Assembly (NCBI RefSeq): GCF_018883605.1
Contig: NZ_JAHLEM010000010.1
Location: 1-64,000, forward strand
Length of the DNA stretch: 64,000 nt
Origin: Streptomyces niphimycinicus
GTDB lineage: Bacteria; Actinomycetota; Actinomycetes; Streptomycetales; Streptomycetaceae
Reading direction: 5' to 3'
Below, in pieces: positions 1 through 18,051 of the stretch. The position numbers and the translations under genes were made by a program. The notes beneath the pieces were generated by a model. The model had not been told where the DNA came from. It worked only from the letters and a program-made list of their open reading frames with translations, and searched no databases. The stretch's first letter is position 1, and every line of letters begins with the position of its first letter.

Positions 1-3000
1 GCGGGTACCGACATCCCGCTGGGCAGCCCGATCGCGGGCCGCACCGACGAGGCGCTGGACGACCTCGTGGGCTTCTTCGTCAACACCCTGGTGCTGCGCA
101 CGGACACCTCGGGCAACCCGACCTTCCGGGAGCTGCTGGCCCGCGTCCGGGACACCGATCTGGCCGCCTACGCCCACCAGGACATGCCGTTCGAACGGCT
201 GGTGGAGGTCCTCAACCCGCCCCGCTCGCTCTCCCGCCACCCGCTCTTCCAGATCGCCCTGGCCTTCCAGAACCCCACCGTGGTCGGCCAGGAGGTCACC
301 GGCCTCACCGTGGCCGCGGAACCGCTCGGCAACGCGGGAGCCAAGTTCGACCTGTCGATCAGCCTCGGCGACCGGCGTGACGAGGACGGTGGCCACCAGG
401 GCATCGAGGGCCATGTCGTCTACAGCGCCGACCTGTTCGACGCGGACACCGTCACCACCCTCGTCGCCCGGCTGATCCGGCTGCTGGAGGCGGCCGTCGC
501 CGACCCGGACCAGCCGATCGGCCGGATCGGGCTGCTCGACCCCGCCGAGCGGACCCGCATGGTGGTCACCTGGAACGACACCGCCACCGATGTCCCCGAG
601 GTGACCCAGCCCGAGCTGTTCCAGGCCCAGGTGGCCCGCACCCCCGACGCGCCCGCGCTGGTCTTCGGCGCCGAGGAGCTGTCGTACGCCGAGCTCAACG
701 CCCGCGCCAACCGGCTGGCCCGCCTGCTCATCGACCGCGGTGTGAGCCCGGAGCGGTTCGTCGCCGTCGCCCTGCCCCGATCGGCACACCTGGTGGTGGC
801 CCTGCTCGCGGTGCTCAAGGCCGGCGGCGCCTATGTGCCGGTGGACCCGGCCTACCCGGCCGAGCGGATCGGGTTCATGCTCTCCGACACCGGCCCGGCG
901 CTGCTGCTCACCGACGCCGACACCGCCGCCACGCTGCCGCAGGACACCGAGGACATCCCGCACCTCCTGCTGGACGACCCCGCCACCGGCGCGCACCTCG
1001 CCCGCTTCGACGCCACCGACCCCGACGACGGCGACCGGCTCGCACCGCTGCGCCTGGCCAACCCCGCCTATGTCATCTACACCTCGGGCTCGACCGGACG
1101 GCCCAAGGGCGTCGTCATCCAGCACACCTCGCTCACCGACTACCTGGTCTTCGCCGGGGGCGACTACGACGGGGTGCGCGGCACCGCGCTGCTGCACTCC
1201 TCGATCTCCTTCGACCTGTCGGTGACCGCCACCCATGTGCCGCTCACCGTGGGCGGCACCGTCCAGGTCGTCAGCGACCTCCAGGACCCGGACCCGGGGA
1301 CCGCCGAGGCGCTGCGCACCCGCCCGTGCACCTTCCTCAAGGCCACGCCCAGCCATCTACCGGTCCTCACCACGCTGCCCGAGCAGTTCGCGCCCACCGC
1401 CGAACTGCTCCTCGGCGGTGAGCTGCTGCTGGGCGAGCGGGTCGACGCCTGGCGCGCCGACCACCCCGGCACCACCGTCCTCAACATGTACGGGCCCACC
1501 GAGACCACGGTCAATTGCAGCCAGTACCGCATCGCACCGGACACCCCGATTCCGCCGGGACCGCTGCCCATCGGCGGCCCGATGCCCAACACCCGGTTCC
1601 ATGTGCTCGACGACCGCCTGGAGCTGGTGCCGCCGGGCGCGGCCGGAGAGCTGTACGTGGCGGGCGACTGCCTGGCCCGCGGCTATCTGGGCCGCCCCGA
1701 TATGACGGCCGCCCGGTTCGTCCCCGATCCGTTCGGCGCCCCCGGCTCCCGGATGTACCGCACGGGAGATGTGGTGCGCTGGAACCCGGACGGCACGCTG
1801 TCCTTCCTGCGCCGGGTGGACGACCAGGTCAAGCTGCGCGGCTTCCGGATCGAGCTGGGCGAGGTCGAGGCCGTGGTCGACCGCCACCCCGCCGTCGCCG
1901 GATCCGCGGTGATCGTGCGCGAGGACCGCCCCGGCGACCAGCGCCTGGTCGCCTATGTGGTGCCCGCGCCCGGCGCCGGGCTCCCGGTCCCCGCCGAGCT
2001 GCGCCGCCACGCCGCCGCCGACCTCCCCGAGTACATGGTCCCGAACGCCTTCGTCCCGCTGGACGTACTGCCGCTGACCCCCAACCGCAAACTGGACCGC
2101 AGGGCCCTGCCCGCTCCCGAGTCCTCCGCGGTCTCCGGCGGCCGGGCGCCCCGCACCCGCCAGGAGCGGCTGCTGTGCGAGCTGTTCGCCGAGGTCCTCG
2201 GGATGGACCGGGTCTCCGTCGACGACGGCTTCTTCGACCTCGGCGGCCACTCCCTGCTGGCCACCCGGCTCATCGGCCGGGTGCGCGCCACCTTCGGGGT
2301 GGACATCGCCATCCGCACCCTCTTCGAGGCACCCACGGTGGCGGAGCTGACCGAGCGGCTCGGCACCGGGGAGGACGACGGCCAGGGCGCCTACGGAGCG
2401 TTTGATGGCCTGCTGCCGCTGCGCCGCAAGGGCGGCCGTCCGCCGCTGTTCTGCGTCCACCCGGCCAGTGGCTTCAGTTGGTCCTACGCCGGGCTGATGC
2501 GCCACCTCGGCCCCGACTACCCGATCTACGGCCTCCAGTCGCGTGGCATCGCCGAACCCGGTGAACTGCCCACCGGCATCCAGGAGATCGCCGCCGACTA
2601 CCTGAAGCAGGTGCGCACCGTCCAGCCCACCGGCCCCTACCTGCTGCTCGGCTGGTCCTTCGGCGGACTGGTGGCGCACGCGATGGCCGAACAGCTCCAG
2701 CGGGCCGGTGAGCGGGTCGCCCTGCTGGCCATGCTCGACTCCTTCCCCCGGCTCCCCGCGAGCCACGGCGGCACCGTGCGGGCCGGGGAGGAGGACGCCG
2801 TCCTGTCCCAGCGGGAGTTCCTCGGCGGAATGCTCGACCTGGCCGGCTACGAGCGGGCCCAGTGGGACGGGGAGCCGCTGGAGTACGGCCGGGTGGCGGA
2901 GATCCTCCGCGGCCAGGGCGGCATCCTCGGCAGCCTGGAGGAGCGGCACGTGGCGGCCCTGTACGAGGTGTTCGAGAACAATTCACGGCTCGCACGGGGT

Positions 3001-3213
3001 CATGTACCCGGAACCTACGTGGGAGACCTGATCTTCTTCGAGGCGACGCTCGGCAAGCCGGGGGACGCCCCCGGGCCCGAGGTGTGGGCGCCCTTCCTGG
3101 AGGGCTCCATCGAACGCCACCCCGTCGAGTCCACCCACGACGACATGACCCAGCCGGAGCCGCTGGCCGGGATCGGCCGGATCCTCGCCGCCCGGCTCCG
3201 CGACTTCACCTGA
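1..3213 (+). CDS. NRPS terminal module, partial: (C)-A-PCP-TE
   Basis: The reading frame is open from base 1, so the gene begins upstream and only its C-terminal 1070 residues are present. Residues 1-150 are the C-terminal part of a condensation domain ([10 protein letters not shown], then [15 protein letters not shown]). The adenylation domain covers about 185-705, with [10 protein letters not shown] near 362, NMYGPTETT near 495 and [10 protein letters not shown] near 695. A carrier domain follows (LGGHSLL, phosphopantetheine Ser about 751). The thioesterase runs from about 805 to the end, with nucleophile motif GWSFGG (Ser about 886). The TE shows that this is the last module, which releases or cyclises the peptide. 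Binding-pocket residues read by eye are D-L-T-K-L-G-M-V-N plus the invariant Lys, close to published Asp/Asn codes, so Asp, Asn or 3-methyl-Asp is a reasonable guess. A MbtH gene follows 67 bases later. Confidence 0.95.
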
Positions 3214-3260: not shown

Positions 3261-3280
3261 GAAGAGAGACGAGACGCGAG

Positions 3281-3499
3281 ATGAGCAACCCCTTCGACGA
3301 CGCGGACGCCATGTATCTGGTGCTGGTCAACGACGAGGGCCAGTACTCCCTGTGGCCGGTCTTCGCCGAGGTCCCGGCGGGCTGGACCGGCGTCCACGGC
3401 CCCGACGGGCGCCAGGCATGCCTGGATCACATCAACGAGAACTGGACCGACATGCGCCCCAAGAGCCTTGTCGAGGCCATGGACGCGGCCGCCTCCTGA
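3281..3499 (+). CDS. MbtH-family NRPS accessory protein
   Basis: This 72-residue protein has the full MbtH signature: [12 protein letters not shown] near residue 17, P-A-G-W near 32, and N-W-T-D-M-R-P near 55. Family members bind adenylation domains and are often needed for their folding or activity. Its position just downstream of the NRPS gene, on the same strand, fits a role as cofactor for this assembly line. A purine-rich ribosome site precedes the ATG, and no alternative start is credible given the length usual for the family (about 70). Confidence 0.95.
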
Positions 3500-3585: not shown

Positions 3586-3843
3586 ATGTCCGAAGCGCGT
3601 GAGCAGCACCTGGACGAGCTGCGCGAGATCGTCGCCGAGGTGCTCGAGGTCGAGCCGGAGGAGATCACCGAGACCGGTTCTTTCGTGGAGGAGCACGAGG
3701 CGGACTCGCTGCGGGCGATCGAGATCCTCGCCCGGATCGAGAAGAAGTACAAGATCGACATCCCGCAGTCCGAGCTGCCGCAGATGGAGAACCTCAAGGC
3801 GGTCTACGACGTCGTGGCCAACCAGGCCGGCTGGCAGGACTGA
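3586..3843 (+). CDS. Discrete acyl carrier protein, copy 1
   Basis: An 85-residue stand-alone carrier protein. The E-A-D-S-L-R motif (Ser about 41) is the phosphopantetheine site, and the flanking helices (LDELREIVAEVLEVEPEEI; IPQSELPQMENL) follow the ACP fold. It should carry the growing chain for the KS/CLF, KR and DH enzymes encoded downstream. It differs from the second ACP at 8374-8631 by only five bases in 258 and by two residues (Gln7/Lys and Asn79/His). The leader carries gaaggag 8 bases before the ATG. It sits far from the KS genes, beside the NRPS/MbtH genes, so it could be a loading copy that hands the chain to the NRPS, or a plain duplicate. Confidence 0.95.
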   Translation: MSEAREQHLDELREIVAEVLEVEPEEITETGSFVEEHEADSLRAIEILARIEKKYKIDIPQSELPQMENLKAVYDVVANQAGWQD

Positions 3844-3900
3844 CCCCTTCGCACACCACGGCGACGACGACGTCACGAGGGAAGAAAGCGGATCACCGAC

Positions 3901-4428
3901 ATGAATGCTCCAGCTTCCCGGGACACCGGGGGACGGCAGATGGCCTGGGCCGGATACACGGCCGCGGTACTGGCCATCGTCTTCGGCCTGTTCAGCTTCT
4001 ACTGGGCCGCCGGGGGCACCTTCGGCATCGACACCCTGGGCGGCGCGATCCAGCGGATGGCGGAGCGCCGGGACTCCGGCTTCCTCGCGGTCGTCTGGAT
4101 CACCGGCGCGCTCAAGGTCTTGGGCGGTCTGTTCTCGTTGTCGCTCGTGCGGCCGTGGGGCCGCGTCGTCCCCCGCCCGCTGATGCTTCTCGCGGGCTGG
4201 GGCGGCGCGGTGCTGCTGACCGTCTACGGCGCCTTGCAGGTCGGCAGCCTGCTGCTGGTGGCGTTCGGCGTGCTCACCCCGTCCGACCCCGTCGAGTGGA
4301 AGCCGCTGCTGTGGCGCCTGTTCGTCTGGGACATGTCGTTCCTGGTGTGGGGAATCCTGCTCTTCCTCGCCACCCGGACCTATGTCATGAACCATCCGCG
4401 GCGCCCGGAAAGGCGCGGAGGAAATTGA
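3901..4428 (+). CDS. DUF3995-like four-helix membrane protein
   Basis: A 175-residue protein with four hydrophobic segments (about residues 16-38, 60-82, 92-122 and 138-160) separated by short charged loops, and a conserved-looking F-Y-W-A-A-G-G-T-F-G after the first helix, the style of DUF3995 proteins. No catalytic motif is visible. Its stop overlaps the ATG of the SbnA-like gene (ATGA), so the two are probably co-translated. This ties an otherwise anonymous membrane protein to the Dap or peptide pathway. Export, self-protection or anchoring are all possible and none is shown by the sequence. Confidence 0.75.
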   Translation: MNAPASRDTGGRQMAWAGYTAAVLAIVFGLFSFYWAAGGTFGIDTLGGAIQRMAERRDSGFLAVVWITGALKVLGGLFSLSLVRPWGRVVPRPLMLLAGWGGAVLLTVYGALQVGSLLLVAFGVLTPSDPVEWKPLLWRLFVWDMSFLVWGILLFLATRTYVMNHPRRPERRGGN

Positions 4429-5432
4429 TGTACGACAGCGCGCAGGACCTGGTCTTCGACCATGTCTTCCTGCGGATCGATGGACTCGTCCCCGATATCC
4501 GGCTCCTGCTCAAGATCGAGGGTTTCAATCCGGCCGGTTCGATCAAACTGAAGACCGCCATCGGACTCGTCGAGGACGCCGAGCGGTGGAATCTGCTCAG
4601 ACCCGGCGGCCACATCATCGAATCGTCCTCGGGCAACCTGGGAGTGGCGCTCGCCTCCGTGTGCGCCGCCAGGGGATACCGCTTCACCTGCGTCACCGAC
4701 CCGAACACCTCACCCCAGAACGCGGCCCTGATCCGGGCCTTCGGGGCGACGCTGGTGGTCGTCGACAAGAAGGACGCCAACGGCGGCTATCTACAGTCGA
4801 GGATCGACCACATCCACGACCGGCTGCGGGAGGACCCCTCCCTGTTCTGGCCGAACCAGTACGCGAACGAGGCCAACCCCCGGATCCACCGGGAGCGCAC
4901 CGCCGCCGCCATCCTCGAGGAGGTCCCCGAGGTCGACCACCTGTTCATCGGCGCCGGCACCACCGGCACCCTGATGGGCTGCGCGGCCTACTTCCGCGAA
5001 CGCTCCCCGCACACCCGGATCGTCGCGGTGGACACCGCGGGATCCGTCACCTTCGGCTTCCCGCCCGGCAAGCGGCATCTGCCCGGGCTGGGCACCAGCC
5101 GCAAGCCCGAACTGTGCGACCCGCGGCTCGTCGACGACATCGTCATCGTCCCCGAGGCCGAGGCGATCCGCATGTGCCGCACCATCGCCAGAAGCCGGGG
5201 CATCGCCACCGGCGGCTCCACCGGCTCGGTCCTGGCGGCCGTGGCGCGCAGGGGCCCGTCGCTGCCGCCCGGATCCACCGTCGTGGCCATCGCCCCCGAC
5301 ACCGGGGACCGCTATCTCAACACCATCTACAACGACGCCTGGGTCGAGGAACGCTTCGGACACCAGGTCCTGGCCCCGGCGGGCGCGGACGACCATCCGG
5401 ACGCCGACGGCTCACTGCTCCTGAAAGGCTGA
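4428..5432 (+). CDS. SbnA-like 2,3-diaminopropionate pathway synthase (PLP)
   Basis: A 334-residue PLP enzyme of the cysteine synthase fold. N-P-A-G-S-I-K near residue 26 gives the Schiff-base lysine, S-S-S-G-N-L-G near 65 is the substrate loop, and G-A-G-T-T-G-T near 170 is the phosphate-binding loop. SbnA condenses O-phospho-L-serine with L-glutamate to N-(1-amino-1-carboxy-2-ethyl)-glutamate, the first step to L-2,3-diaminopropionate. The next gene, one base away, is the SbnB partner, and the pair is the accepted marker of Dap supply for NRPS products. The start at 4428 follows ggaggaaattg and overlaps the previous stop; in-frame codons further upstream lie inside the preceding gene and are rejected. 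Confidence 0.9.
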   Translation: MYDSAQDLVFDHVFLRIDGLVPDIRLLLKIEGFNPAGSIKLKTAIGLVEDAERWNLLRPGGHIIESSSGNLGVALASVCAARGYRFTCVTDPNTSPQNAALIRAFGATLVVVDKKDANGGYLQSRIDHIHDRLREDPSLFWPNQYANEANPRIHRERTAAAILEEVPEVDHLFIGAGTTGTLMGCAAYFRERSPHTRIVAVDTAGSVTFGFPPGKRHLPGLGTSRKPELCDPRLVDDIVIVPEAEAIRMCRTIARSRGIATGGSTGSVLAAVARRGPSLPPGSTVVAIAPDTGDRYLNTIYNDAWVEERFGHQVLAPAGADDHPDADGSLLLKG

Positions 5433-5433
5433 C

Positions 5434-6441
5434 ATGTTCGACTTCCATGTCGTCAGCGGCAAAACCGCCCGCCGGGTGATCGGCCGCTCCCGGTCGAAGA
5501 TCGTTGACCAGGTACGGGACACCTACCTCACCCATGACCTGGGTGACTCGGTCAATCCCAACAGCTACTTCCTGCGCTTCCCCGACAAGCCCGACAGCCG
5601 CATCATCGCCCTGCCCGCCTATCTGGGCGGTGAGCACTCGGTCGCCGGCATCAAGTGGATCGCCAGCTTCCCCGCCAATATCGAGCGCTCGGTGCCGCGC
5701 GCCTCGGCGGTCCTGCTGCTCAACGACTACGAGACCGGCTATCCGTTCGCCTGCCTCGAAGCCGCCCAGATCAGCGCCGCCCGCACCGCGGCCTCCGCCG
5801 TGCTCGCCGCCGAGACGCTGCACGGCTCCCGGACCGCCCGGCGGCTCCTGGTGATCGGCGCGGGCATCATCGCCCGCAACATCCTGGAGTTCTTCACCGA
5901 CCGCGACTGGCAGTTCGACGAGGTGCTGGTGCACGACCGGGACCCGCGCTACGCCGAATCGCTCACCGAGCATGTGTCCGGCGTCCTCGGCCACCGCGCG
6001 AGCGTCGCCCCCGACCGGGACAAGGCCATCGCGGAGGCCGATCTGGTGGTGCTCGCCACCACGGCAGGAGAGCCCTACATCACCCGGCCGGGCACCTTCG
6101 CCCCCGGTCAGATCGTCCTCAACATCTCCCTGCGGGACATCGACCCGGAGATCATCGTGGGCGCCTGCAACATCCTGGACGACATCGACCACTGCCTCAC
6201 GGCCAACACCTCGCCGCATCTGGCCGAGCAGAAGTTCGGCCACCGGGAGTTCATCAACGGCACCCTCGCGGATGTGCTCCGCGGCCGCCGGAAGGTGGCC
6301 ACCGACCGGCCCGTGATCTTCTCGCCCTTCGGCCTCGGCGTGCTGGACCTCGCCGTGGGCGCGTTCGTGCACCGGGCCGCCCTCGAGGCGAACGAGGCCA
6401 CCGCCATCGAAGGATTCTTCGGCGAGACCACCCGCTGGTGA
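5434..6441 (+). CDS. SbnB-like Dap-forming dehydrogenase (ornithine cyclodeaminase family)
   Basis: A 335-residue NAD-dependent enzyme of the ornithine cyclodeaminase/mu-crystallin family. A central dinucleotide fold begins with V-I-G-A-G-I-I-A near residue 143, and the substrate-side region near 70 reads G-I-K-W-I-A-S-F-P. SbnB oxidatively cleaves the SbnA product to L-2,3-diaminopropionate and 2-oxoglutarate. It starts one base after the SbnA stop, which implies translational coupling and equal supply. The TGA stop at 6439-6441 is also the first three bases of the 17-bp repeat array that follows. Confidence 0.9.
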   Translation: MFDFHVVSGKTARRVIGRSRSKIVDQVRDTYLTHDLGDSVNPNSYFLRFPDKPDSRIIALPAYLGGEHSVAGIKWIASFPANIERSVPRASAVLLLNDYETGYPFACLEAAQISAARTAASAVLAAETLHGSRTARRLLVIGAGIIARNILEFFTDRDWQFDEVLVHDRDPRYAESLTEHVSGVLGHRASVAPDRDKAIAEADLVVLATTAGEPYITRPGTFAPGQIVLNISLRDIDPEIIVGACNILDDIDHCLTANTSPHLAEQKFGHREFINGTLADVLRGRRKVATDRPVIFSPFGLGVLDLAVGAFVHRAALEANEATAIEGFFGETTRW

Positions 6442-6654: not shown

Positions 6655-7395
6655 ATGTCCACACAACGCCGTGCCCTTGTCACCGGGGGATCGCGCGGTA
6701 TCGGCGCGAGTGTCGCCCTCCGCCTCGCCCAGGACGGAATGGACGTCGCGTTCTGTTACCGCAGTGAGAAGGAGCGCGCCGAGGAGACCGCCGAGCGGAT
6801 CCGCGAGCTGGGGGTGCGCTGCTTCCACGCGCCCTGTGACGTCGCGGACTTCGAGGCCGTGCAGTCCTTCATCAAGGAGGCCGAGGCCGACCTCGGCCCC
6901 ATCGACACCCTCGTCAACTCGGCCGGCATCGTCCGCGACAACCCCCTCGTGCTGATGCCGGTGGAGGACTGGGACGCGGTCATCGACGCCAGCCTGACCG
7001 GTGTCTTCAACTTCTGCCGGTCGATGGCGTTCGGCTTCATGAAGCGCAAGCAGGGCGTCATCGTCAATGTCTCCTCGGTGGCCGGCGTCTACGGCAACAA
7101 GGCGCAGACGAACTACTCCGCCGCCAAGGCCGGTATCAACGGCATGAGCAAGGCGCTGGCCAAGGAGCTCGCCCCCTACGGCCTGCGGGTCAACGTCGTC
7201 GCCCCCGGGTTCATCGAGACCGACATGACCGCGGGCCTCACCGACAAGGTGCGCGCCCAGGCGATGGAGCTGGTCCCCATGCGCCGCTTCGGCACCCCCG
7301 AGGACGTGGCCGAACTGGTGTCGTTCCTGGTGTCCGACCGGGCCGGCTACATCACCGGGCAGATCCTCCAGGTCGACGGGGGCATCGTCCTGTGA
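6655..7395 (+). CDS. FabG-type 3-ketoacyl-ACP reductase (SDR)
   Basis: A 246-residue classical short-chain dehydrogenase. G-G-S-R-G-I-G near residue 10 binds NADP, and the N-S-Y-K tetrad is complete (N-S-A-G near 87, V-S-S near 139, Y-S-A-A-K near 152). The C-terminal Y-I-T-G-Q-I-L-Q-V-D-G-G is typical of FabG. In this neighbourhood it should reduce the 3-ketoacyl-ACP after each elongation by the discrete KS/CLF. Its stop overlaps the GTG start of the first dehydratase (GTGA), so KR and DH are coupled. The ribosome site is gaggta, 7 bases upstream of the ATG, just after the repeat array. Confidence 0.93.
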   Translation: MSTQRRALVTGGSRGIGASVALRLAQDGMDVAFCYRSEKERAEETAERIRELGVRCFHAPCDVADFEAVQSFIKEAEADLGPIDTLVNSAGIVRDNPLVLMPVEDWDAVIDASLTGVFNFCRSMAFGFMKRKQGVIVNVSSVAGVYGNKAQTNYSAAKAGINGMSKALAKELAPYGLRVNVVAPGFIETDMTAGLTDKVRAQAMELVPMRRFGTPEDVAELVSFLVSDRAGYITGQILQVDGGIVL

Positions 7396-8373: not shown

Positions 8374-8631
8374 ATGTCCGAAGCGCGTGAGAAGCATCTG
8401 GACGAGCTGCGCGAGATTGTCGCCGAGGTGCTCGAGGTCGAGCCGGAGGAGATCACCGAGACCGGTTCTTTCGTGGAGGAGCACGAGGCGGACTCGCTGC
8501 GGGCGATCGAGATCCTCGCCCGGATCGAGAAGAAGTACAAGATCGACATCCCGCAGTCCGAGCTGCCGCAGATGGAGAACCTCAAGGCCGTCTACGACGT
8601 CGTGGCCCACCAGGCCGGCTGGCAGGACTGA
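8374..8631 (+). CDS. Discrete acyl carrier protein, copy 2
   Basis: An 85-residue ACP with the same E-A-D-S-L-R phosphopantetheine motif as copy 1 at 3586-3843. At DNA level only five substitutions separate the two (three near the 5' end, two near the 3' end), while flanking sequence is unrelated; the homology begins at the ATG and ends at the stop. The gene lies directly before the KS gene (6-base gap), the usual place for the ACP of a type II system. An aggagaat ribosome site precedes the ATG. It is likely the main extender ACP. Confidence 0.95.
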   Translation: MSEAREKHLDELREIVAEVLEVEPEEITETGSFVEEHEADSLRAIEILARIEKKYKIDIPQSELPQMENLKAVYDVVAHQAGWQD

Positions 8632-9846: not shown

Positions 9847-11021
9847 ACGCCACCGCCATCACCCCGGACACCCCCGGCCACCAGGACGTCCGCGAGAACA
9901 CCCTGGCCATCACCGGCTGGGGCGTCGTCACCTCCCTGGCCATCGGCGCGGATGAGTTCACCACCGCCATCGGCGAAGGCCGCAGCGGGCTGCGCGAGGT
10001 CACCGGCATGTTCGACGAAGAGCTGCCCGAGCACGAGGCGTTCGCCATGCCCGACTTCAAGGTGCGCGACCACCTCGGCCGCAAGGGCACCAGCTTCTTC
10101 GACCGCAGCACCTCCCTCGGTCTGCTGGGCTGCACTCTCGCCCTCGACGACACCGACCTGACCGTCACCGACGACAACCGCGACCGGTTCGGCATCGTCC
10201 TCGGCACCACCGCCGGCAGCATCAAGGCCACCAGCGACTACAGCCGCGAAACCCTGGAGGGCGACAAGCCGTTCCGGGTCAATCCGGTGCTGTTCCCCAA
10301 CACCGTGATGAACTGCGCCGCCGGCCAGTCCGCCATCTGGCTGGGGCTCAAGGGCGTCAACGCCACCGTCGCCGGCGGCCGGCTCGCCGGGCTGAGCGCC
10401 CTGCGCTACGCCCGCAACCAGATCCGGCGCGGCTACGCGGACGCCCTGCTCGTGGGTTCCGCCGAGGAGTTCAGCCCGCACACCGCCTGGTTCAGCCACC
10501 GCCAGCACTCCGCCGAGGAGGGCCGGGTCAAGGTCGGCGAAGGCTCCGCCGTCTTCGTCGTGGAGAACGCCGAGGCGGTGCGCGCGCAGGGGCGCACCCC
10601 CGACGCCGAGGTCCTGGCCGTCGAGGTCGGCAGCTACGGGGCGCCGGGCCGGGAGCCCGACGCCGGAGCCGGGCTCGCCGACCGCATCGGCCGCGCCCTG
10701 CGCCGCGCCGCGGTGGAACCGTCCCAGGTGCGGGCGGTCGCCACCGGCGAGAGTGGAATCGCCCGCCTGGACGACATCGAGCGCCGTGGCGTCGACAGCG
10801 CGCTCGGCGGCGAGGTGTGGCGGGTGCGGGCCAGTGAGTGGGTCGGCGAGTGCCAGAGCGCCTCCGGCTCGCTCCAGCTCGCCGCCCTGCTGGCCGGCCA
10901 CCGCGGCCACCCGGAGCTGGACGGCGCGGTGTCCGTGGTCACCTCGGTCTCGCCCGACGGCGGTGTCGGCGTGGCCGTCGTGAGGGGGTGGCACCGTGCA
11001 CGTGGCGATCACCGGGGCTGA
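9843..11021 (+). CDS. Chain length factor (KS beta) partner
   Basis: A 392-residue ketosynthase-fold protein without the catalytic residues. The position equivalent to the active Cys lies in V-A-G-G-R-L-A-G and reads Arg by eye, the His of HGTGT is replaced (V-A-T-G-E-S-G-I), and the GHT motif is lost. This is what defines a chain length factor, which pairs with KS and sets chain length. The ATG at 9843 overlaps the KS stop by four bases; the longer in-frame extension upstream lies wholly inside KS and is rejected. It overlaps the next KS gene by 26 bases. Confidence 0.9.
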   Translation: MNATAITPDTPGHQDVRENTLAITGWGVVTSLAIGADEFTTAIGEGRSGLREVTGMFDEELPEHEAFAMPDFKVRDHLGRKGTSFFDRSTSLGLLGCTLALDDTDLTVTDDNRDRFGIVLGTTAGSIKATSDYSRETLEGDKPFRVNPVLFPNTVMNCAAGQSAIWLGLKGVNATVAGGRLAGLSALRYARNQIRRGYADALLVGSAEEFSPHTAWFSHRQHSAEEGRVKVGEGSAVFVVENAEAVRAQGRTPDAEVLAVEVGSYGAPGREPDAGAGLADRIGRALRRAAVEPSQVRAVATGESGIARLDDIERRGVDSALGGEVWRVRASEWVGECQSASGSLQLAALLAGHRGHPELDGAVSVVTSVSPDGGVGVAVVRGWHRARGDHRG

Positions 11022-12132
11022 GCTGCTCACCTGCCACGGCGGCACCGACACCACCTTCGCCGCCCTGGCCAAGGGCGTCGACGGCAGCCAGGGCCTGCGG
11101 TTCTACGACACCGACCGCATCAACGTCACCCGCGGCTACCACGTCGACGATTCCGACGACCCCGAGCCGGAACTGCCGCTGCGGGCCGGGCGCTGGCTCG
11201 CCCGCTGTGTCCTCGGCGCGGTCCGCCAGGCCGGGGTGGACCCGGCCGTCGAGCGGGTGTCCGTCATCGTCGGCACCGGACTGCGCGAACTGCGGGCCAT
11301 GGAGCGCTGGGCCGTGGACGGCGTCCCGGTGCGCCGCCGGGATCTGCACTTCACCACCGCGGTCCGGGAGGTGCTGCCCGAGGTCACCGAGGTGATCACG
11401 GTGTCCAACGCCTGCTCCGCGTCCGGCCACGCCCTCGCGCTCGCCCAGGACCTGCTCGCCGCGGGCGAGGCCGACGCGGTCGTCGCCGCGGGCTGCGACG
11501 CGATGAGCGAGTCCATGCTCACCATGATCGGCCGGGTGGCCGACGCCCCCACGCCCGCACTCAGGCCCTTCCAGGAGGGCCGCGCAGGTGTCCTGCTGGG
11601 CGAGGGCGCGGTGGCGGTCGTGCTGCGCCGGGCCGCCGACGCCGGGCCCGGCGCGCTCGCCACCGTCCTGGCCACCGGGCTTTCCTGCGACGCCCACCAT
11701 GAGACCGCCCCGGACGTGGGCGGCATCGTGGCGGCCATGCGGGACGCCCACCGCCGCGCCGGGGTCTCCCCGCACGACATCGGCCTGGTCCTCGCCCATG
11801 GCACCGGCACCGCGCTCAACGACCCGACCGAGGCCGCCGCCCTGGACACGGTCTTCGCCGGTGTTGCCCCGGGCCCGCTGGTGACCGGCATCAAGGGCGC
11901 CATCGGGCACACCTCCGGCAGCGCGGCGCTGATGAGCCTGCTCGTCGCCGCCGAGGCGATGCGCTCCGGTTCGGTGCCCGCGACCGTGGGGCTGGCCGAG
12001 CCGATCGAGGCGGCCGCCGGACTGCGGCTGGTCGTCGGCGAACCCGCGCCCTGCGACGCCCGGCTGGCCCAGGTCAATGCCTTCGGATTCGGCGGAGTCA
12101 ACGCCGTCAGCGTGATCGGGGTGGACCGATGA
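10996..12132 (+). CDS. Second ketosynthase, catalytic residues intact
   Basis: A 378-residue condensing enzyme, shorter and more diverged than the first KS. It keeps N-A-C-S-A-S near residue 137, A-H-G-T-G-T near 266, and G-A-I-G-H-T-S-G near 295, so it should be active. The GTG start at 10996 lies inside the CLF gene, and the stop overlaps the following truncated KS-like gene (ATGA). Other highly reducing type II clusters carry extra KS genes whose exact roles vary, such as starter formation or an alternative elongation range; which applies here cannot be read from the sequence. Confidence 0.88.
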   Translation: MHVAITGAELLTCHGGTDTTFAALAKGVDGSQGLRFYDTDRINVTRGYHVDDSDDPEPELPLRAGRWLARCVLGAVRQAGVDPAVERVSVIVGTGLRELRAMERWAVDGVPVRRRDLHFTTAVREVLPEVTEVITVSNACSASGHALALAQDLLAAGEADAVVAAGCDAMSESMLTMIGRVADAPTPALRPFQEGRAGVLLGEGAVAVVLRRAADAGPGALATVLATGLSCDAHHETAPDVGGIVAAMRDAHRRAGVSPHDIGLVLAHGTGTALNDPTEAAALDTVFAGVAPGPLVTGIKGAIGHTSGSAALMSLLVAAEAMRSGSVPATVGLAEPIEAAAGLRLVVGEPAPCDARLAQVNAFGFGGVNAVSVIGVDR

Positions 12133-13103
12133 CCATGAACCCCGACCGGGTGACCGTCACCGCACACGCCCTCCATGTGCCCGATCCGATCGGCGGCTTC
12201 GCGGCGACCGCGGCGGGGGACCTCTTCTCCTCCGTGGCCCCGGAACCGGCCTGCGGCCCGGACCAGGCGCACACCGTACTGGGCCGCAAGGGGCTGCTGT
12301 TCAAGGAGGACGCGACCCGGCTGGCGCTGTGCGCCGTCCACCGTGCCTTCGCACTGCCCCCGGGCAAGCTCACCGAACCGCTCCCCGGAGCGGAACACAC
12401 CGCCGTCGTCGTCAGCTCCAACGTCGGCAACGCCCGCACCGTCCGCGACATCGTGGCCGAGATGCGGGCCGGCTCCGCCCACGACGTCAGCCCGCTGAAC
12501 GGTCCCAGCGCCTCCAGCAATGTGATCGCCAGCACCCTCGCCATCCGCTACGGCTTCACCGGGCCCAATCTGATGGTGTGCTCCGGCGCCACCTCCGGTC
12601 TGGACGCCGTCCGGCTGGGCGCCCTGCTGCTGCGCGGCGAACGCGCCCGCCGGGTCGTGGTGGTCGGGGTCGAACCCGACGACGAGGTGGCCCGCGGGCT
12701 GGCCGCCCTACGCCCCGCCGCACCCGGCACCACGCTGCCGGTCCCGCTCCGGGCGGCCGCCGCCTGCGTCGTACTGGAGCTGGGCGGGAGCGGACCGCTC
12801 CTGGGCGATGTGCGCCGGCACACCCGTCCGGACGACATCGCCGAGGCCCTCGAGCCGCCCGCGCTGCGGCTCACCGCTCCCGGGGCCCCGGGAGCCGGTG
12901 GCGGCATCGACCTCACCGCGCATCTGGGCGAGGTCTACGGTGCCCTCGGCGTGGTCCAACTGGCCGTGGCCGCCGCCTGGCTGGGCTCCGGGCAGCCGTC
13001 CGGACCGGGCGGGGCGCTGATCACCTGCGGTGACGGCGAGGACGGCTACGCCTCGGTGCGGCTCGACCCGGCGGTCGTCCCCGCCCTCGCGGGAGGCGGG
13101 TGA
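12129..13103 (+). CDS. Short ketosynthase-like protein without active Cys (second CLF-like)
   Basis: Only 324 residues long. The thiolase-fold core is recognisable (G-P-S-A-S-S-N-V-I-A-S near residue 122; L-M-V-C-S-G-A-T-S-G-L-D-A near 145), but the aligned nucleophile position is Ala and the HGTGT and GHT motifs are missing. It directly follows the second KS with an ATGA overlap, so the two probably form a second KS/CLF-type heterodimer. It is about 70 residues shorter than the first CLF, mostly in the second half. It could alternatively be a structural or gatekeeping protein. Confidence 0.75.
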   Translation: MTMNPDRVTVTAHALHVPDPIGGFAATAAGDLFSSVAPEPACGPDQAHTVLGRKGLLFKEDATRLALCAVHRAFALPPGKLTEPLPGAEHTAVVVSSNVGNARTVRDIVAEMRAGSAHDVSPLNGPSASSNVIASTLAIRYGFTGPNLMVCSGATSGLDAVRLGALLLRGERARRVVVVGVEPDDEVARGLAALRPAAPGTTLPVPLRAAAACVVLELGGSGPLLGDVRRHTRPDDIAEALEPPALRLTAPGAPGAGGGIDLTAHLGEVYGALGVVQLAVAAAWLGSGQPSGPGGALITCGDGEDGYASVRLDPAVVPALAGGG

Positions 13104-13104: not shown

Positions 13105-14976
13105 ATGACCGAGCCGAACGGGGCGCGCCCGGGACCCCCGCCCGTCTGGTGGACACCGGTGGCCGAGGCCGAGGCCGAGGTCCGCGGGGCGCGGGAGCGG
13201 CTGGCCGTGCTGGGGACGCCGTCCCCGGCACCGCACCCCGGCCCGCCCGTGGTGGCCCTGGTACATGGTCTCGAAGGCGGGTGGGCCGGATGGCAGCCGC
13301 TGGCCGGAGAGCTGGCGGGCCGCTGCCGGACCTACGCGCTCGACCTGCCGTGGCGCGCGGGCAACCGCTACCGCTGGCGGCACCACGGCACCCCCGCGCA
13401 CTGGTTGCGCGAGGCGCTGGCCCTGGTCCCCGAGCCCGTGGACATCCTGATCGGCCACTCCTTCGGCGCCAACGCCGTCCTGGAGCACCTGGCCGACCGG
13501 GACGGCGCGCCCCAGCCGCGCGCCGCGGTGCTCCTCGCCCCGTTCTTCCGCCCCGAATCCCTCCGGGTGGACTGGCCCCTGCACGACGCGGCGCTGGCGG
13601 GCTTCCGGCAGATCATCGCCGACGGCGTACGCGTCGGACTGGGGAGGCGGGCCCAGGAGCTCGACCCCGAGGTGCTCGCCGCCATGGCAGACACCACCGT
13701 GGAGCGGATCGGCCCGGTCGGATTCCTCACCCTGTTCCTCCAGTTCACCGGCACCACCGAACTGGACCTGGGCGCCGTCACCGTGCCCACCCTCGTCCTG
13801 GCCGGACACGGTGACCCCTCGCTGTCCGATGCCCGCGCGGCGGCCCTGGCCGCCGCGATGCCCGCGGCGACGGTCCGCAGACGCCCCGGCTACACCCACT
13901 TCTGCCATGCGGAGCAGCCCGGGGACGTCGGCGCGGACATCACCGGCTTCCTGGACTTTCCTCACCGCCCTCCCGGCGGCCACCTCCCTCGCCACCACCC
14001 TTCTCACCACAAAGGAATGACCATGACGGAGCTGCTGGACGGCACCCTCACCACCCCCGTGGGCAGGCCCCGCTACGAGGGCGCCAACATCCGCACCTGG
14101 ATCGGCTTCAAGCACTTCATGTATCTGACGGAGGAGGCGGTCCTCCAGTACTTCCGCGAGCGCGGGGCGGGCGCGGAGACGCTGTACCACACCTACGGCC
14201 TCGGCCTGGAGATCGTCGACCACTCGGTCAGCCTGCCCGCCACGCTCGGCATCGACGACGAGGTCACCGCCATCGTGGAGCCGGGCAAGCCCAAGCCCGG
14301 CCACGGCGCCCCGTTCAAGCTCCGGCTGACCGTCGAGCGGGACGGCGAGACCGTCACCGTCCTCACCGGCAAGGTCCGGGTCGCCCTGGTCGTCCTGAAG
14401 GACGCCCCGGCCGACATCCAGCCCGTCCCCGCGCATCTGGAGCCCTACACCGTTCCCGAGGTGGCCGCCCTCGCCGACGCCGCGGACCAGGAGCCGCGGA
14501 CCGTCTCCGACAGCGAGCTGTCCGCCGTTCTCACCCCGGCCGGCTCAGGCGCCTTCCTGTGGTCCTGGCGGATCCCGTACTTCTACTGCCACTTCTCCGA
14601 CCGGCTCCAGCACTCCGGCTACGTCCGGGCCTTGGAGGAGGTCGTGGACCGCTTCCTGGAGGAGCGCGGCATCTCCATCCGCACCATGCTGGTCGAGCGC
14701 GGCTGGATCCCCGTGGTGTCCCGCGCCCGGGTGCACATGCTCGCCGACGCCCTCATGGAAGAGACCCTGCACACCGTGTTCACCGTCCAGGAGATTCTCA
14801 AGGACGTGATGTACACCGCCACCTTCGACACCTATGTCCACCGCGACGGACGGCTGGTGCACACCGCCACCGGGAGCATCATGCACGGCTACGCCGTCAG
14901 CCGCGGCGAACTGGCGGGCAGCCTCGCCGAGTTCGACGACACCACCCGCGCCGCGCTGCTGGGGGACGCCCGATGA
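13105..14976 (+). CDS. Type II thioesterase read in frame into a tandem-hotdog thioesterase
   Basis: One uninterrupted 623-residue frame joins two proteins. Residues 1-285 are an alpha/beta hydrolase: V-H-G-L-E-G-G oxyanion loop, G-H-S-F-G-A nucleophile near 117, Asp in G-H-G-D-P, and His in Y-T-H-F. Residues 305-623 hold two hotdog repeats like acyl-CoA/4HBT thioesterases (W-I-G-F-K-H-F near 330; H-F-S-D-R-L-Q-H-S-G-Y-V near 497). The linker (about 285-304) is Pro/His-rich with no conserved look and resembles a translated spacer, and an AAAGGA ribosome site followed by ATG (14017) and ATG (14023) lies exactly at the hotdog boundary. So either a true fusion is made or the hotdog protein is also started internally. 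The hydrolase would clear or release ACP chains. Confidence 0.8.
   Translation: MTEPNGARPGPPPVWWTPVAEAEAEVRGARERLAVLGTPSPAPHPGPPVVALVHGLEGGWAGWQPLAGELAGRCRTYALDLPWRAGNRYRWRHHGTPAHWLREALALVPEPVDILIGHSFGANAVLEHLADRDGAPQPRAAVLLAPFFRPESLRVDWPLHDAALAGFRQIIADGVRVGLGRRAQELDPEVLAAMADTTVERIGPVGFLTLFLQFTGTTELDLGAVTVPTLVLAGHGDPSLSDARAAALAAAMPAATVRRRPGYTHFCHAEQPGDVGADITGFLDFPHRPPGGHLPRHHPSHHKGMTMTELLDGTLTTPVGRPRYEGANIRTWIGFKHFMYLTEEAVLQYFRERGAGAETLYHTYGLGLEIVDHSVSLPATLGIDDEVTAIVEPGKPKPGHGAPFKLRLTVERDGETVTVLTGKVRVALVVLKDAPADIQPVPAHLEPYTVPEVAALADAADQEPRTVSDSELSAVLTPAGSGAFLWSWRIPYFYCHFSDRLQHSGYVRALEEVVDRFLEERGISIRTMLVERGWIPVVSRARVHMLADALMEETLHTVFTVQEILKDVMYTATFDTYVHRDGRLVHTATGSIMHGYAVSRGELAGSLAEFDDTTRAALLGDAR
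14011..14016 (+). promoter_or_regulatory. Internal ribosome binding site for the hotdog thioesterase
   Basis: The sequence aaagga lies at the boundary between the hydrolase and hotdog halves of the long frame. In-frame ATG codons follow at 14017 (immediately after the purines) and at 14023, the latter at good spacing. It suggests that the second half can be translated alone as a protein of about 318 residues. Confidence 0.55.
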
Positions 14977-15704
14977 AGCGACGGCCCCGCCTCTACTTCA
15001 ACCTGCGTTCCCCGTTCAGTTGGATGGGGCTCAAGCGGCTGGAGGAGCGCTTCCCGCAGGCCCCCGAGGTCATCGAGTACTACCCGTACTGGGACCCGGA
15101 CGAGAAGACCCGGGCCGCGCTGGAGGAGCGTGACTCCGGCTTCCACTACACCCAGATGAGCAAGGCCAAGCACCTGTACATCCTCCAGGACACCAAGCGG
15201 CTCTCCACCCGCTACGGATACACCATGTCCTGGCCGGTGGACGTCGACCCGTGGTGGGAGCTGCCGCATCTGGCCTGGCTCAAGGCGCGCCACCTCGGCC
15301 GTGAGCGTGACTTCTACGCGGCGGTGTCCGCGGCCCGCTGGGAGCGCGGCGAGAACATCTGCGACACCGAGGTGCTGCACCGGGTGGCCGAGGCGGCCGG
15401 GTTCGACGGCGACGAGATGGTGGCCGCCGCCCACGACCCCGCACTGCGTGCCGAAGGCGTGGACGCCCTCGCCGCCGCCTACGACGACGATGTGTTCGGC
15501 ATCCCGTACTTCAAGGTCGGACGCCACCGCTTCTGGGGCCTGGACCGGGTCGACGGCTTTCTCGACGAGCTGATCCCGGCGCTGCGGAAGGCCGGTGTGG
15601 ACGTGGCCGAGCCGGTGCCCGAAGCCATCGACGACCCGCTGCCGGCCGCACTGCTGGAGCGGGTCGGCGCCTACGACTCCGACTCGGCCGGCGGCTGCGG
15701 CTGA
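14973..15704 (+). CDS. 2-hydroxychromene-2-carboxylate isomerase-like (DsbA/GST kappa fold)
   Basis: A 243-residue thioredoxin-fold protein. The N-terminus L-Y-F-N-L-R-S-P-F-S-W-M-G replaces a CxxC motif, with Ser at the glutathione-contacting position, and the C-terminal V-F-G-I-P-Y-F-K-V-G-R-H-R-F-W-G-L-D-R matches the HCCA isomerase family (cis-Pro, then F-W-G-x-D-R). Family members catalyse cis/trans isomerisation with a thiol cofactor. In a polyene cluster an E/Z isomerase acting on the ACP-bound polyene would allow 6-pi electrocyclisation to a benzene ring, as proposed for cinnamoyl lipids; that role is inference. The ATG overlaps the previous stop (ATGA). Streptomycetes use mycothiol rather than glutathione, so the cofactor is open. 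Confidence 0.8.
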   Translation: MKRRPRLYFNLRSPFSWMGLKRLEERFPQAPEVIEYYPYWDPDEKTRAALEERDSGFHYTQMSKAKHLYILQDTKRLSTRYGYTMSWPVDVDPWWELPHLAWLKARHLGRERDFYAAVSAARWERGENICDTEVLHRVAEAAGFDGDEMVAAAHDPALRAEGVDALAAAYDDDVFGIPYFKVGRHRFWGLDRVDGFLDELIPALRKAGVDVAEPVPEAIDDPLPAALLERVGAYDSDSAGGCG

Positions 15705-15720: not shown

Positions 15721-16197
15721 ATGCTCATGAACCCCCTCAACGCGGCCGTCGCCCCGCGCGGCCGCACCGTACTGCTCAGCAGCGTGTCCTCGGATTCCCA
15801 CACCTGGAACCTCGTCTTCCTCCAGTTGCTGCTGGAGGAGATGGGCCACCGCGTCATCAACCTCGGTGCGTGTGTGCCGGACGAACTGCTGGTGCGGGAA
15901 TGCTCCGCGATCCGTCCCGACCTGGTGGTGATCAGCACGGTCAACGGTCATGGGCAGGTGGACGGCGCGCGGCTGATCGGCAAGCTCCGATCCGAGCCGC
16001 GGACCCGGGACACCCCGGTGGTGATCGGCGGAAAGCTGGGCATCACCGGGGGCGCCGAGGCGGACGGCATGGCGCGGCGGCTCGTCTCGGCGGGCTTCAG
16101 CGCCGTGTTCCAGGACGACGCGGAACCGGCCGAGATCGGCCGGTTCCTGGCCTCCCTGGACCACCCCGCACCCCGCCATCCCGTCGCCGCCTCATGA
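15721..16197 (+). CDS. Glutamate mutase small (B12-binding) subunit
   Basis: A 158-residue cobalamin-binding domain. S-D-S-H-T-W-N near residue 25 is the D-x-H-x-x-G type motif that supplies the lower axial His, V-I-S-T-V-N-G near 69 and V-I-G-G-K-L-G near 97 line the nucleotide tail. It pairs with the catalytic subunit encoded next to convert L-glutamate to (2S,3S)-3-methylaspartate with adenosylcobalamin. The start at 15721 follows aggagag; a second ATG two codons later is equally possible. The stop overlaps the large-subunit ATG, so subunits are coupled. Confidence 0.92.
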   Translation: MLMNPLNAAVAPRGRTVLLSSVSSDSHTWNLVFLQLLLEEMGHRVINLGACVPDELLVRECSAIRPDLVVISTVNGHGQVDGARLIGKLRSEPRTRDTPVVIGGKLGITGGAEADGMARRLVSAGFSAVFQDDAEPAEIGRFLASLDHPAPRHPVAAS

Positions 16198-17525
16198 GCA
16201 CATCCGGCTCCTTCGCCGGGCTGGCCGCCCGCCGGCGCGCCGCCGGGCTGCTGGTCCAGCCGCGAATGGGCTTCAGCGACCCACGATGGATGCGCGCGGG
16301 GCTGGCGGCCGTCCGGCGGGCGCGGGCGGCCACCGTCGGCACCCTCACCCTGGACAGCTATACGCGGGTCAAGGACTACGACACGGCCGAGCGCGCCCTG
16401 GCCGATGGCTATCCGCTCAACGGCTATCCGCTGGTCACCCACGGCCCGGACACCACCCGTGCCGTCCTCGACGGCATCCAGGGCCCCGGCTTCCCGGTCC
16501 AGGTCAGACATGGGTCGCCGCTGCCGGACGACATCATCGCCGCGCTCGTCACGGCCGGGCTGGACGCCACCGAGGGCGGGCCCGTCTCGTACTGCCTGCC
16601 CTACAGCCGGGTCCCGCTGCGGGAGGCCACCGCGAGCTGGGCACGCTCCTGCGAGCGGTTCGCGGAGCTGCGGGACCGGGGCGTCGAGCCCCACCTGGAG
16701 AGCTTCGGCGGGTGCATGATGGGCCAGATGTGCCCGCCCGGACTGCTCATCGCCATCACCGTGCTCGAAGGGCTCTTCTTCCACCGGCACGGGCTGCGCA
16801 GCATCTCGCTCAGCTACGCCCAGCAGACCGACGCCCGGCAGGACGAGGAGGCGGTGGCCGCGCTGCGGTCGCTGGCCACCGCGTTCCTGCCGGACGACAC
16901 CGACTGGCACATCGTGGTGTACACCTACATGGGCAAGTACCCGCGTACCCACGGCGGTGCCCTCCTCGTGCTGCGCGCGGCCGCCGAACTCGCCGTGCGC
17001 ACGGGTGCCACCCGGCTCATCGTCAAGACACCGGCCGAGTCGTACCGCATCCCCACCATCGAGGAGAACGTCGAGGCGCTGGAGTTCGCGGGCGCCGCCG
17101 CGGCGGCCGAAGCCACCAGGACACCCCCGGACCCCGCCCGGGTCCCGGACACCGGTATCGCCGCCGAGGCCAGGCAGCTCATCGAGGCCGTGCTCGACCT
17201 CCACCCGGACGTCGGACAGGCCCTGGTGCGCGCCTTCGCCAAGGGCTATCTCGATGTGCCGTACTGTCTGCACTCCGACAACCACGGACGTGCCCGCGGC
17301 TACATCGACGAGGCGGGGCGGCTGCGCTGGGCATCCGTCGGCTCGATGCCCATCCGGGGCATCACCGGCGGAACACGCGAACACACCGTCGGCAGCTCGG
17401 AGTTGCTGTCGGCGCTGTCATACGTCGAACGCACACACGATCTGCTGGCCCTGCGGAGCCAGGACACGAGGACAAGCGATGCACTGGACGCTGGAACGAC
17501 TGCTGCCGACCTTCGACAAGCGTGA
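16194..17525 (+). CDS. Glutamate mutase large (catalytic) subunit
   Basis: A 443-residue TIM-barrel subunit of methylaspartate mutase. Recognisable segments are V-Q-P-R-M-G-F near residue 20, T-L-D-S-Y-T-R near 55, the conserved glycine-rich substrate loop E-S-F-G-G-C-M-M-G-Q-M-C-P-P near 169, and K-T-P-A-E-S-Y-R-I-P near 278. With the small subunit it rearranges L-Glu to 3-methyl-Asp, known as an NRPS monomer and as a macrolactam starter precursor. A dedicated mutase next to an NRPS whose last A domain reads Asp-like argues for 3-methyl-Asp incorporation. The ATG at 16194 overlaps the previous stop; the longer upstream frame lies in the small subunit and is rejected. Confidence 0.92.
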   Translation: MSTSGSFAGLAARRRAAGLLVQPRMGFSDPRWMRAGLAAVRRARAATVGTLTLDSYTRVKDYDTAERALADGYPLNGYPLVTHGPDTTRAVLDGIQGPGFPVQVRHGSPLPDDIIAALVTAGLDATEGGPVSYCLPYSRVPLREATASWARSCERFAELRDRGVEPHLESFGGCMMGQMCPPGLLIAITVLEGLFFHRHGLRSISLSYAQQTDARQDEEAVAALRSLATAFLPDDTDWHIVVYTYMGKYPRTHGGALLVLRAAAELAVRTGATRLIVKTPAESYRIPTIEENVEALEFAGAAAAAEATRTPPDPARVPDTGIAAEARQLIEAVLDLHPDVGQALVRAFAKGYLDVPYCLHSDNHGRARGYIDEAGRLRWASVGSMPIRGITGGTREHTVGSSELLSALSYVERTHDLLALRSQDTRTSDALDAGTTAADLRQA

Positions 17526-18051
17526 ACACCACAGCCGCCGGATCGACGCCCCGCCGGAGCGGGTCTGGCGGGAACTCATGGACCTGCGGGTCGGCGAACT
17601 CGCCATCACCCTCGGCCTGATGCGGGTGCGTGGCGGCCCCAAGACCTGGGTGAACGGTGTCGACACCGGCGCCCACGAAGGCATGGACCTGCGGGTCCTG
17701 GACTCGATGGCACCCCGGGAGATGGCCGCCGACCCGCCCCATGAGGTGGTGCTCGGCGACATCGCCCGCTACACCGCGCTGCGCCCCGCCCGCCCGGACG
17801 TCGAACGCGGCGATCCGGAGGCGTTCGCACACTTCGACGAGGCGGGCTGGTCCAAGGTGGTGATGAATTTCCGCCTCATCCCCGAGGGCGACGGCACGTG
17901 GCTGTCCACCGAGACCCGGGTCCTGAACACCGACCCCGCCACCCGCCGCGCCTTCACCCTGTACTGGGGCTTCATGCGGGCGGGCAGCGGCATGATCCGC
18001 CATGACCTGCTGCGGGCCATCGCGAAGAAGGTGGCCACCACCACGGGCTAG
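17479..18051 (+). CDS. SRPBCC (START-like) fold protein, role unknown
   Basis: A 190-residue protein with the layout of the SRPBCC/polyketide-cyclase superfamily: N-terminal H-S-R-R-I-D-A-P-P-E-R-V-W-R-E-L strand-helix, a V-V-M-N-F-R-L-I-P-E-G-D-G-T-W-L-S-T-E-T-R-V sheet region near 125, and a long C-terminal helix. Such folds bind hydrophobic ligands. It overlaps the glutamate mutase gene by 47 bases and ends the + strand cluster, its stop interlocking with the stop of the convergent GH67 gene. A polyene cyclase, lipid chaperone or resistance role are all guesses; only the fold is supported. Confidence 0.65.
   Translation: MHWTLERLLPTFDKREHHSRRIDAPPERVWRELMDLRVGELAITLGLMRVRGGPKTWVNGVDTGAHEGMDLRVLDSMAPREMAADPPHEVVLGDIARYTALRPARPDVERGDPEAFAHFDEAGWSKVVMNFRLIPEGDGTWLSTETRVLNTDPATRRAFTLYWGFMRAGSGMIRHDLLRAIAKKVATTTG

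Follow-up and report, generated by a model that had tools for sequence, protein, structure and literature searches.

Coprisamides and related cinnamoyl-capped products

Coprisamides A and B come from Streptomyces sp. SNU533, and coprisamides C and D from a Micromonospora (Micromonospora sp. UTJ3, BGC0002378). In a 2016 review (PMC4778507), the coprisamides were termed cyclic heptapeptides and coprisamide A was given a 2-heptatrienyl cinnamoyl chain. A later review gives coprisamide C a 6-methyl-heptenyl chain and writes it as cyc(D-Ser, D-Leu, Val, Dap, beta-Me-Asp) plus an exocyclic Val, where Dap is 2,3-diaminopropionate and beta-Me-Asp is beta-methyl-aspartate. Lower case in the later review's notation was taken as D, its usual sense, which is backed by that review's list of l/d pairs. 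The subject of this report is a gene block at positions 1-18051 of a DNA stretch of Streptomyces niphimycinicus (hereafter the window: 64,000 nucleotides, bases 1-64000 of contig C2, NZ_JAHLEM010000010.1, from a 10.9 Mb draft genome of 1378 contigs). Judged from its sequence, this locus is very likely a coprisamide-type cluster for a cyclic peptide with an alkenyl-cinnamoyl cap. The coprisamides share with it the order Ser-X-Val-Dap-beta-methyl-Asp, have D residues where the locus has epimerisation (E) motifs, and bear a cinnamoyl cap built by an isomerase-containing type II polyketide synthase (PKS), as in the locus. The product class is known, and another Streptomyces cluster for it is very probably what is new, providing a complete and conserved gene set that can be fitted module by module, from Ser to methyl-Asp, to a published structure.

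Other described systems were also compared. The skyllamycin cluster likewise combines beta-methyl-Asp with a cinnamoyl cap whose type II PKS includes an isomerase (PMC6510318 for the isomerase), but skyllamycin differs in its beta-hydroxylated residues and alpha-hydroxyglycine, and Dap is not named in the available portion of its description. The clusters of kitacinnamycin, WS9326A and epoxinnamide likewise have ketosynthase (KS) and chain length factor (CLF), ketoreductase (KR), dehydratase (DH), acyl carrier protein (ACP) and isomerase genes adjoining a nonribosomal peptide synthetase (NRPS), whereas Dap or methyl-Asp genes are not named in the available portions of their descriptions. Moreover, the youssoufene and globisporamic acid clusters likewise have multiple KS/CLF pairs together with a cis-trans isomerase, with the gla cluster lacking an enoyl reductase (PMC9381841), although their products are free lipids and three KS/CLF pairs are present, against the two of this locus.

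Reassembly and module order of the peptide synthetase

Since base 1 of the window is the contig edge, the gene block was truncated at its left end. The DNA of the NRPS genes of Streptomyces rugosispiralis was used as a query against the S. niphimycinicus genome, and the matching contigs were retrieved. Contigs C825, C936, C1047, C1158, C1269 and C2 tiled, in this order, residues 1-3068 of NRPS1 and 1-5005 of NRPS2 at 91-94% identity to S. rugosispiralis, with overlaps of 11 to 91 query residues between adjacent contigs. No stop was found in the five stretches checked (C936, two parts of C1047, C1158 and C1269), and C825 also carried a pair of ATP-binding cassette (ABC) transporter genes.

The ten-residue codes of the adenylation (A) domains were taken by motif anchors. 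The automated reading misplaced one A1 position in S. rugosispiralis and Streptomyces endocoffeicus, misread A3 of Streptomyces sp. SCUT-3 and missed all A4 codes; A4 was read by hand. The codes obtained in S. niphimycinicus were DVFSVAIVYK (A1), DVWHLSLVDK (A2), DALLVGAVAK (A3), DAYWWGGTFK (A4), DIWEMTADDK (A5) and DLTKLGMVNK (A6). The A1 stretch SLISAVPSAF was identical in this genome, S. rugosispiralis and S. endocoffeicus, and the variants found were DVWHISLVDK for A2 in SCUT-3, and DALLIGAIAK and DALLIGAVAK for A3 in Streptomyces sp. NWU339 and Streptomyces scopuliridis, respectively. We take A2 to be specific for serine, A4 for valine, A5 for diaminobutyrate (Dab) or Dap, and A6 for an aspartate- or asparagine-like residue; A1 and A3 received no assignment from their codes. 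Furthermore, HHLVVDGVSWR motifs, which we take to be typical of E domains, appeared between the thiolation (T) and the next condensation (C) domain only in modules 1, 2 and 3, both in S. rugosispiralis and in the S. niphimycinicus contigs. These features define six modules: A1-E, Ser-E, A3-E, Val, Dab/Dap-type and Asp/Asn-type, followed by a thioesterase (TE). The Dab/Dap-type and Asp/Asn-type codes were adjacent and immediately before the TE.

Modules 2 to 6 fit coprisamide C, because D-Ser, D-Leu, Val, Dap and beta-Me-Asp come in order and E motifs stand at both D residues. The order Ser-X3-Val-Dap-methylAsp-TE, with D at Ser and X3, agreed with the published notation, the residue names being in part provisional. 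The preliminary description of this DNA, made from its letters alone, had proposed a coprisamide-like or new acyl cyclic peptide and had looked to the upstream modules for Asp-type or Dap-type A domains; both the Dab/Dap-type and the Asp/Asn-type domains were present, and the coprisamide-like proposal was supported by the A5 and A6 codes beside the TE, the module order and the three E motifs.

Some observations, however, weigh against assigning the locus to the coprisamides. The exocyclic Val of coprisamide C is upper case (L) in the later review, yet module 1 bears an E-type motif, and its A1 code could not be matched to a residue. The term heptapeptide implies one residue more than the six modules, no ring-oxidising enzyme was found in the block, and the code-to-residue readings are provisional except where they match coprisamide C. 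Finally, the sequence link to BGC0002378 is indirect, running only through the published score of S. rugosispiralis. In that report (PMC10525797), cluster 1 of S. rugosispiralis RCU-064, annotated as 'aryl polyene, ladderane, NRPS, aminocoumarin', scored 95% to coprisamide C/D; by its gene content, this cluster would be the S. rugosispiralis locus compared here.

Conservation of the gene set across Streptomyces

A scan of genome contigs with SbnA, an enzyme of Dap synthesis, yielded 129 relatives, and the best 80 of these 129 were kept for the locus counts. The first ketosynthase (KS1), its chain length factor (CLF1) and a thioesterase-like protein (TE-like) accompanied SbnA in five of the best 80 loci, namely those of S. 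endocoffeicus, S. rugosispiralis, S. sp. NWU339, S. scopuliridis and S. sp. SCUT-3, with SbnA 95 to 72% identical. In all five, the large subunit gene of glutamate mutase (GlmE) lay just past the fetched stretch. The conserved order was ABC ATPase, ABC permease, NRPS1 (3068 aa), NRPS2 (5005 aa), MbtH, ACP, DUF3995, SbnA, SbnB, KR, DH, DH, ACP, KS1, CLF1, KS2, CLF2, hydrolase, TE-like, isomerase, the small mutase subunit GlmS, GlmE and a last gene. Its conservation in 5/5 relatives means that the gene set is no chance neighbourhood.

The entire order was intact in S. endocoffeicus and S. rugosispiralis, while the other three relatives showed faults. In NWU339, the hydrolase and TE-like genes were merged in the gene call, and NRPS1 (L113:12694-17361) comprised a single module rather than two: the serine module (module 2), and with it the A2 code, was absent, which may be either a true module loss or a collapsed assembly repeat. 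In SCUT-3 (L106), NRPS2 was split among several reading frames, through either frameshifts or errors in sequencing, and DH1 was absent from the gene call but was recovered by tblastn. The contig of S. scopuliridis began inside NRPS1, and both of its ACP genes were broken.

Among 392 genomes of the genus, KS1 was found at 90% identity or more in only four (S. niphimycinicus itself, G171, G390 and G149, the last with a KS1 identical to that of NWU339), and the full TE-like protein appeared at the same threshold in the same four, with a broken copy in G103. In contrast, with the threshold set at E 1e-120, relatives of KS1 were present in 106 of the 392; therefore, this PKS class is common and the cluster is rare. 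The last gene reached at least 85% identity in six genomes, these four plus G062 and G378, where it was 94 and 89% identical (L130 and L132), without GlmE within 1.5 kb and in genomes lacking a close KS1. These solitary copies may be remnants of a cluster since lost, or the gene may be independent of it.

The polyketide synthase and the proposed pathway

The PKS genes matched those of a highly reducing type II PKS of the cinnamoyl kind: KS with and CLF without the catalytic Cys, KR, DH, ACP and isomerase. There were two KS/CLF pairs, each KS retaining the Cys and each CLF lacking it at that site, and no enoyl reductase was found among the genes of the block. The families named in the preliminary description (KS, CLF, ACP, KR and DH, with no enoyl reductase) were thus recovered, the second KS/CLF pair and the second ACP being additional. 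Its other readings held as well: SbnA and SbnB both exceeded the curated equivalog cut-offs; the two-subunit glutamate mutase was recognized by PF06368 and a B12-binding subunit, with both GlmS and GlmE scoring under the NCBIfam equivalog cut-offs; the HCCA-isomerase-like gene matched PF01323 and, weakly, HCCA isomerases in the PDB; and the NRPS stretch at the left edge ended in C-A-T-TE.

From these genes the following pathway can be proposed. The two KS/CLF pairs, KR, two DHs and ACPs, with no enoyl reductase, would produce a conjugated polyenoyl-ACP, in which the isomerase would place one Z double bond, making a 6-pi electrocyclisation possible; loss of two hydrogens after closure would give the 2-alkenyl-cinnamoyl cap. 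By our own arithmetic, closure of a C16 heptaenoyl chain between C4 and C9 yields a cinnamic acid bearing a heptatrienyl side chain. SbnA and SbnB would supply L-2,3-diaminopropionate, and GlmS and GlmE would convert L-glutamate into 3-methyl-aspartate. The six-module NRPS would then acylate residue 1 and assemble (D)-X1, D-Ser, (D)-X3, Val, Dap and 3-methyl-Asp, after which the thioesterase would cyclise the peptide, probably through the serine hydroxyl, and the ABC transporter at the far end of the cluster would export the product.

Moreover, the two ACP genes (copies a and b) were 98% identical in DNA. The copies in NWU339 were 99.6% identical to each other and at most 94.6% identical to those of other species, and thus look clearly homogenised within that genome; this comparison covered the relatives other than S. 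scopuliridis, whose copy a is broken, and left out one SCUT-3 row that was out of register. The SCUT-3 proteins also looked homogenised by eye, while the S. rugosispiralis ACPs were not homogenised, each copy being nearer to its S. endocoffeicus counterpart. In S. scopuliridis, the copies (L116:17426 and L117:2804) were both broken at almost the same codon, as expected if the assembler confused two near-identical copies.

The hydrolase and TE-like protein (13105-14976) shared one open frame with no intervening stop, while they were two separate genes in S. rugosispiralis, so that a fusion is possible. The TE-like protein was matched in 64 of the 392 genomes, and among 30 of these loci fetched with 1.5 kb flanks, relatives of the hydrolase, CLF2 and the isomerase were found in 29, 28 and 11, respectively; the hydrolase and TE-like protein thus often travel together in this PKS class. 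The model of the TE-like protein (pLDDT 89.8) had a putative oleoyl thioesterase as its top Foldseek match (E 2.6e-13), with acyl-ACP thioesterases among the matches.

Alternative explanations and the ring-oxidising step

The alternative that survives best is nested within the coprisamide assignment and not exclusive of it: with slightly less than an even chance, the product is a new congener that differs from the coprisamides in residue 1 or in its acyl chain. The unassigned A1 code would suit it, as would the difference in chains between coprisamides A and C noted above, and the presence in Micromonospora sp. MP36 of FabH, for which the Streptomyces blocks gave no match. On the other hand, the A1 code residues agreed in S. 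niphimycinicus, S. rugosispiralis, S. endocoffeicus, NWU339, SCUT-3 and MP36, which argues for one residue 1 across the family.

An acyl chain left as an open polyene that lacks the benzene ring, as in ishigamide-like compounds, is improbable. Ring formation needs a Z bond, closure and the loss of two hydrogens, and the block had no P450 and no dehydrogenase other than SbnB and KR, which would agree with an open chain. Against it, an isomerase is reported from cinnamoyl clusters and from no others among the type II PKSs (PMC6510318), clusters of the cinnamoyl type usually have two or three KS/CLF pairs (PMC9381841), the coprisamides have the ring, and epoxinnamide is ringed although its cluster has no homologue of Kcn17-18-19 or YssX, which close the ring in kitacinnamycin and youssoufene (PMC9321520).

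The preliminary description had looked for an aromatising dehydrogenase; in the block, neither such an enzyme nor a P450 was found besides SbnB and KR by Pfam, NCBIfam and a motif scan, Kcn17-18-19 and YssX not being searched for. In S. rugosispiralis and S. endocoffeicus, the stretch bounded by the ABC ATPase and the last gene contained the genes of the window block, the two NRPS genes and the ABC pair, and no other called gene. A strict scan for the P450 haem motif over the five regions and window positions 1-18051 gave one match, about 16 kb left of the S. rugosispiralis block. The candidates for ring oxidation were thus narrowed to a few block genes (the hydrolase, the double-hotdog TE-like protein and the SRPBCC-like last gene) or an enzyme outside the block. 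The last gene is not claimed as the ring cyclase: its model (pLDDT 85.6) had weak helix-grip matches in Foldseek (e.g. CalU16; TM 0.29-0.44 by query length), and it occurs without GlmE in G062 and G378, which lack a close KS1. No relative of it was found at E 1e-6 in the searched parts of the Micromonospora contigs (L125-L127). By eye, NWU339 had some P450-like genes left of its block, beside terpene-type genes.

A separate adjoining cluster for the Dap and mutase genes, leaving the PKS and NRPS to make a plain cinnamoyl peptide, is very improbable: although three of the best 80 loci had SbnA with GlmE and no such PKS in the flanks fetched, SbnAB lay between ACP and KR and GlmSE after the isomerase in 5/5 named Streptomyces, down to 72% SbnA identity, and the NRPS had the matching A5 and A6 codes. 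The three loci (L016, L028 and L057, from Solihabitans, S. atratus and Actinomadura, with SbnA and GlmS/GlmE) would be other Dap plus methyl-Asp clusters.

A Micromonospora counterpart of the cluster

The same kind of gene set was found in Micromonospora sp. MP36, a strain other than UTJ3, on contigs C319 and C326, each of which ends inside an NRPS gene and which would form one cluster. It had KR, DHs and ACP with two KS/CLF pairs, two isomerases and FabH, as well as GlmSE and SbnAB, the two Sbn proteins exceeding their cut-offs; three E-type motifs were also present. Read by hand, its six A codes differed from those of S. niphimycinicus by three conservative changes (A2 Leu to Ile, A5 Ile to Val and A5 Met to Leu), while identities to the window proteins ranged from 39% (DUF3995) and 40% (SbnA) up to 73% (KR and ACP). 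Furthermore, the Dap cassette of MP36 adjoined genes resembling an ABC transporter, whereas that of the window lay between ACP and KR. Genes resembling mobile elements by eye were seen between FabH and SbnA.

The FabH (beta-ketoacyl-ACP synthase III) gene was located at L125:7776-8720, and as a query at E 1e-3 it gave no match in the window block, the S. niphimycinicus NRPS contigs or the blocks of the five Streptomyces relatives. FabH would introduce a branched starter unit, in line with the branched end of coprisamide C, and the window cluster would start from acetate. A gene-to-chain rule can thus be proposed, whereby FabH present would mean a branched chain end, and FabH absent a straight one.

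Grouping of the Micromonospora and Streptomyces genes in one clade was disfavoured for SbnA (P 0.05), SbnB (P 0.01) and KS1, the control (P 0.035), in quick trees for which the group was named after the identities had been seen, the sample came from the Streptomyces SbnA scan, and the Micromonospora SbnA branch was very long. The trees were built after removal of 13 of 82 SbnA rows and 14 of 70 SbnB rows (13 from Pandoraea in each, plus L079, too short) and of matches with fewer than 240 residues. The Streptomyces and Micromonospora clusters are therefore probably not simple vertical copies for these three genes. A replacement of the Dap cassette alone in Micromonospora is not claimed, because the KS1 control behaved like the Dap genes and a contrast with the PKS was not shown. 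Since the Dap cassette is placed differently and SbnA is only 40% identical while the A-domain codes are nearly unchanged, we tentatively consider, at rather low probability, that the same Dap/methyl-Asp peptide is made with Dap genes, and perhaps PKS genes too, recruited separately round one conserved six-module NRPS.

Gene content and borders of the locus

The block comprised 20 genes on the + strand, or 19 if the hydrolase and TE-like protein are one fused protein (Table 1). Families were assigned with Pfam and NCBIfam, and SbnA and SbnB were judged by the NCBIfam curated equivalog cut-offs.

Table 1. Genes of the putative coprisamide-type block in the window
Feature	Position	Strand	Basis
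NRPS2 3' end: part of module 6 C domain, A6 (DLTKLGMVNK, Asp/Asn-type), T, thioesterase	1..3213	+	PF00668, PF00501, PF00550, PF00975; remainder of NRPS2 on C1269, C1158, C1047
MbtH-like protein	3281..3499	+	PF03621 2e-29
Acyl carrier protein a	3586..3843	+	PF00550
DUF3995 membrane protein	3901..4428	+	PF13160
SbnA, pyridoxal phosphate enzyme of Dap synthesis	4428..5432	+	TIGR03945, 400 bits vs. cut-off 350; GFNPAGSIKLK motif
SbnB, dehydrogenase of Dap synthesis	5434..6441	+	TIGR03944, 419 bits vs. cut-off 327
Ketoreductase (FabG-like)	6655..7395	+	TIGR01830 above cut-off
Dehydratase 1 (FabA/FabZ-like)	7392..7826	+	PF07977
Dehydratase 2 (FabA/FabZ-like)	7813..8295	+	PF07977
Acyl carrier protein b	8374..8631	+	PF00550
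Ketosynthase KS1, catalytic Cys retained (LSTACSAS)	8638..9846	+	Best PDB match 6kxd, named Ketosynthase
Chain length factor CLF1, active site without Cys (NATVAGGR)	9843..11021	+	Family match
Ketosynthase KS2, Cys retained (VSNACS)	10996..12132	+	Family match
Chain length factor CLF2, active site without Cys	12129..13103	+	Family match
Alpha/beta hydrolase, without own stop	13105..14022	+	PF12697; boundary with TE-like set by homology
Double-hotdog protein, acyl-ACP thioesterase fold (TE-like)	14023..14976	+	PF13279; fold model
HCCA-type (DsbA-like) isomerase, putative cis double bond former	14973..15704	+	PF01323; HCCA isomerases in PDB, weak, E 1e-4 and 0.009
GlmS/MutS, glutamate mutase small subunit, SSDSHTWNL stretch	15721..16197	+	B12-binding family
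GlmE/MutE, glutamate mutase large subunit	16194..17525	+	PF06368 8e-89
Last gene, overlaps glmE	17479..18051	+	No Pfam match; model like SRPBCC/START (helix-grip) proteins

At the right border, genes for a GH67 glucuronidase-like protein, a beta-lactamase-like protein and an IclR regulator lay on the - strand (window 18048-23124). Left of the transporter, S. niphimycinicus had genes for a 4-HFC-P synthase and an aldehyde dehydrogenase, with different genes there in S. rugosispiralis and S. endocoffeicus. Elsewhere in the genome, two more KS1-like genes (C1119:1927-3120, 57% identity, and C1161:5438-6643, 56%) probably mark further polyene-type PKS clusters.

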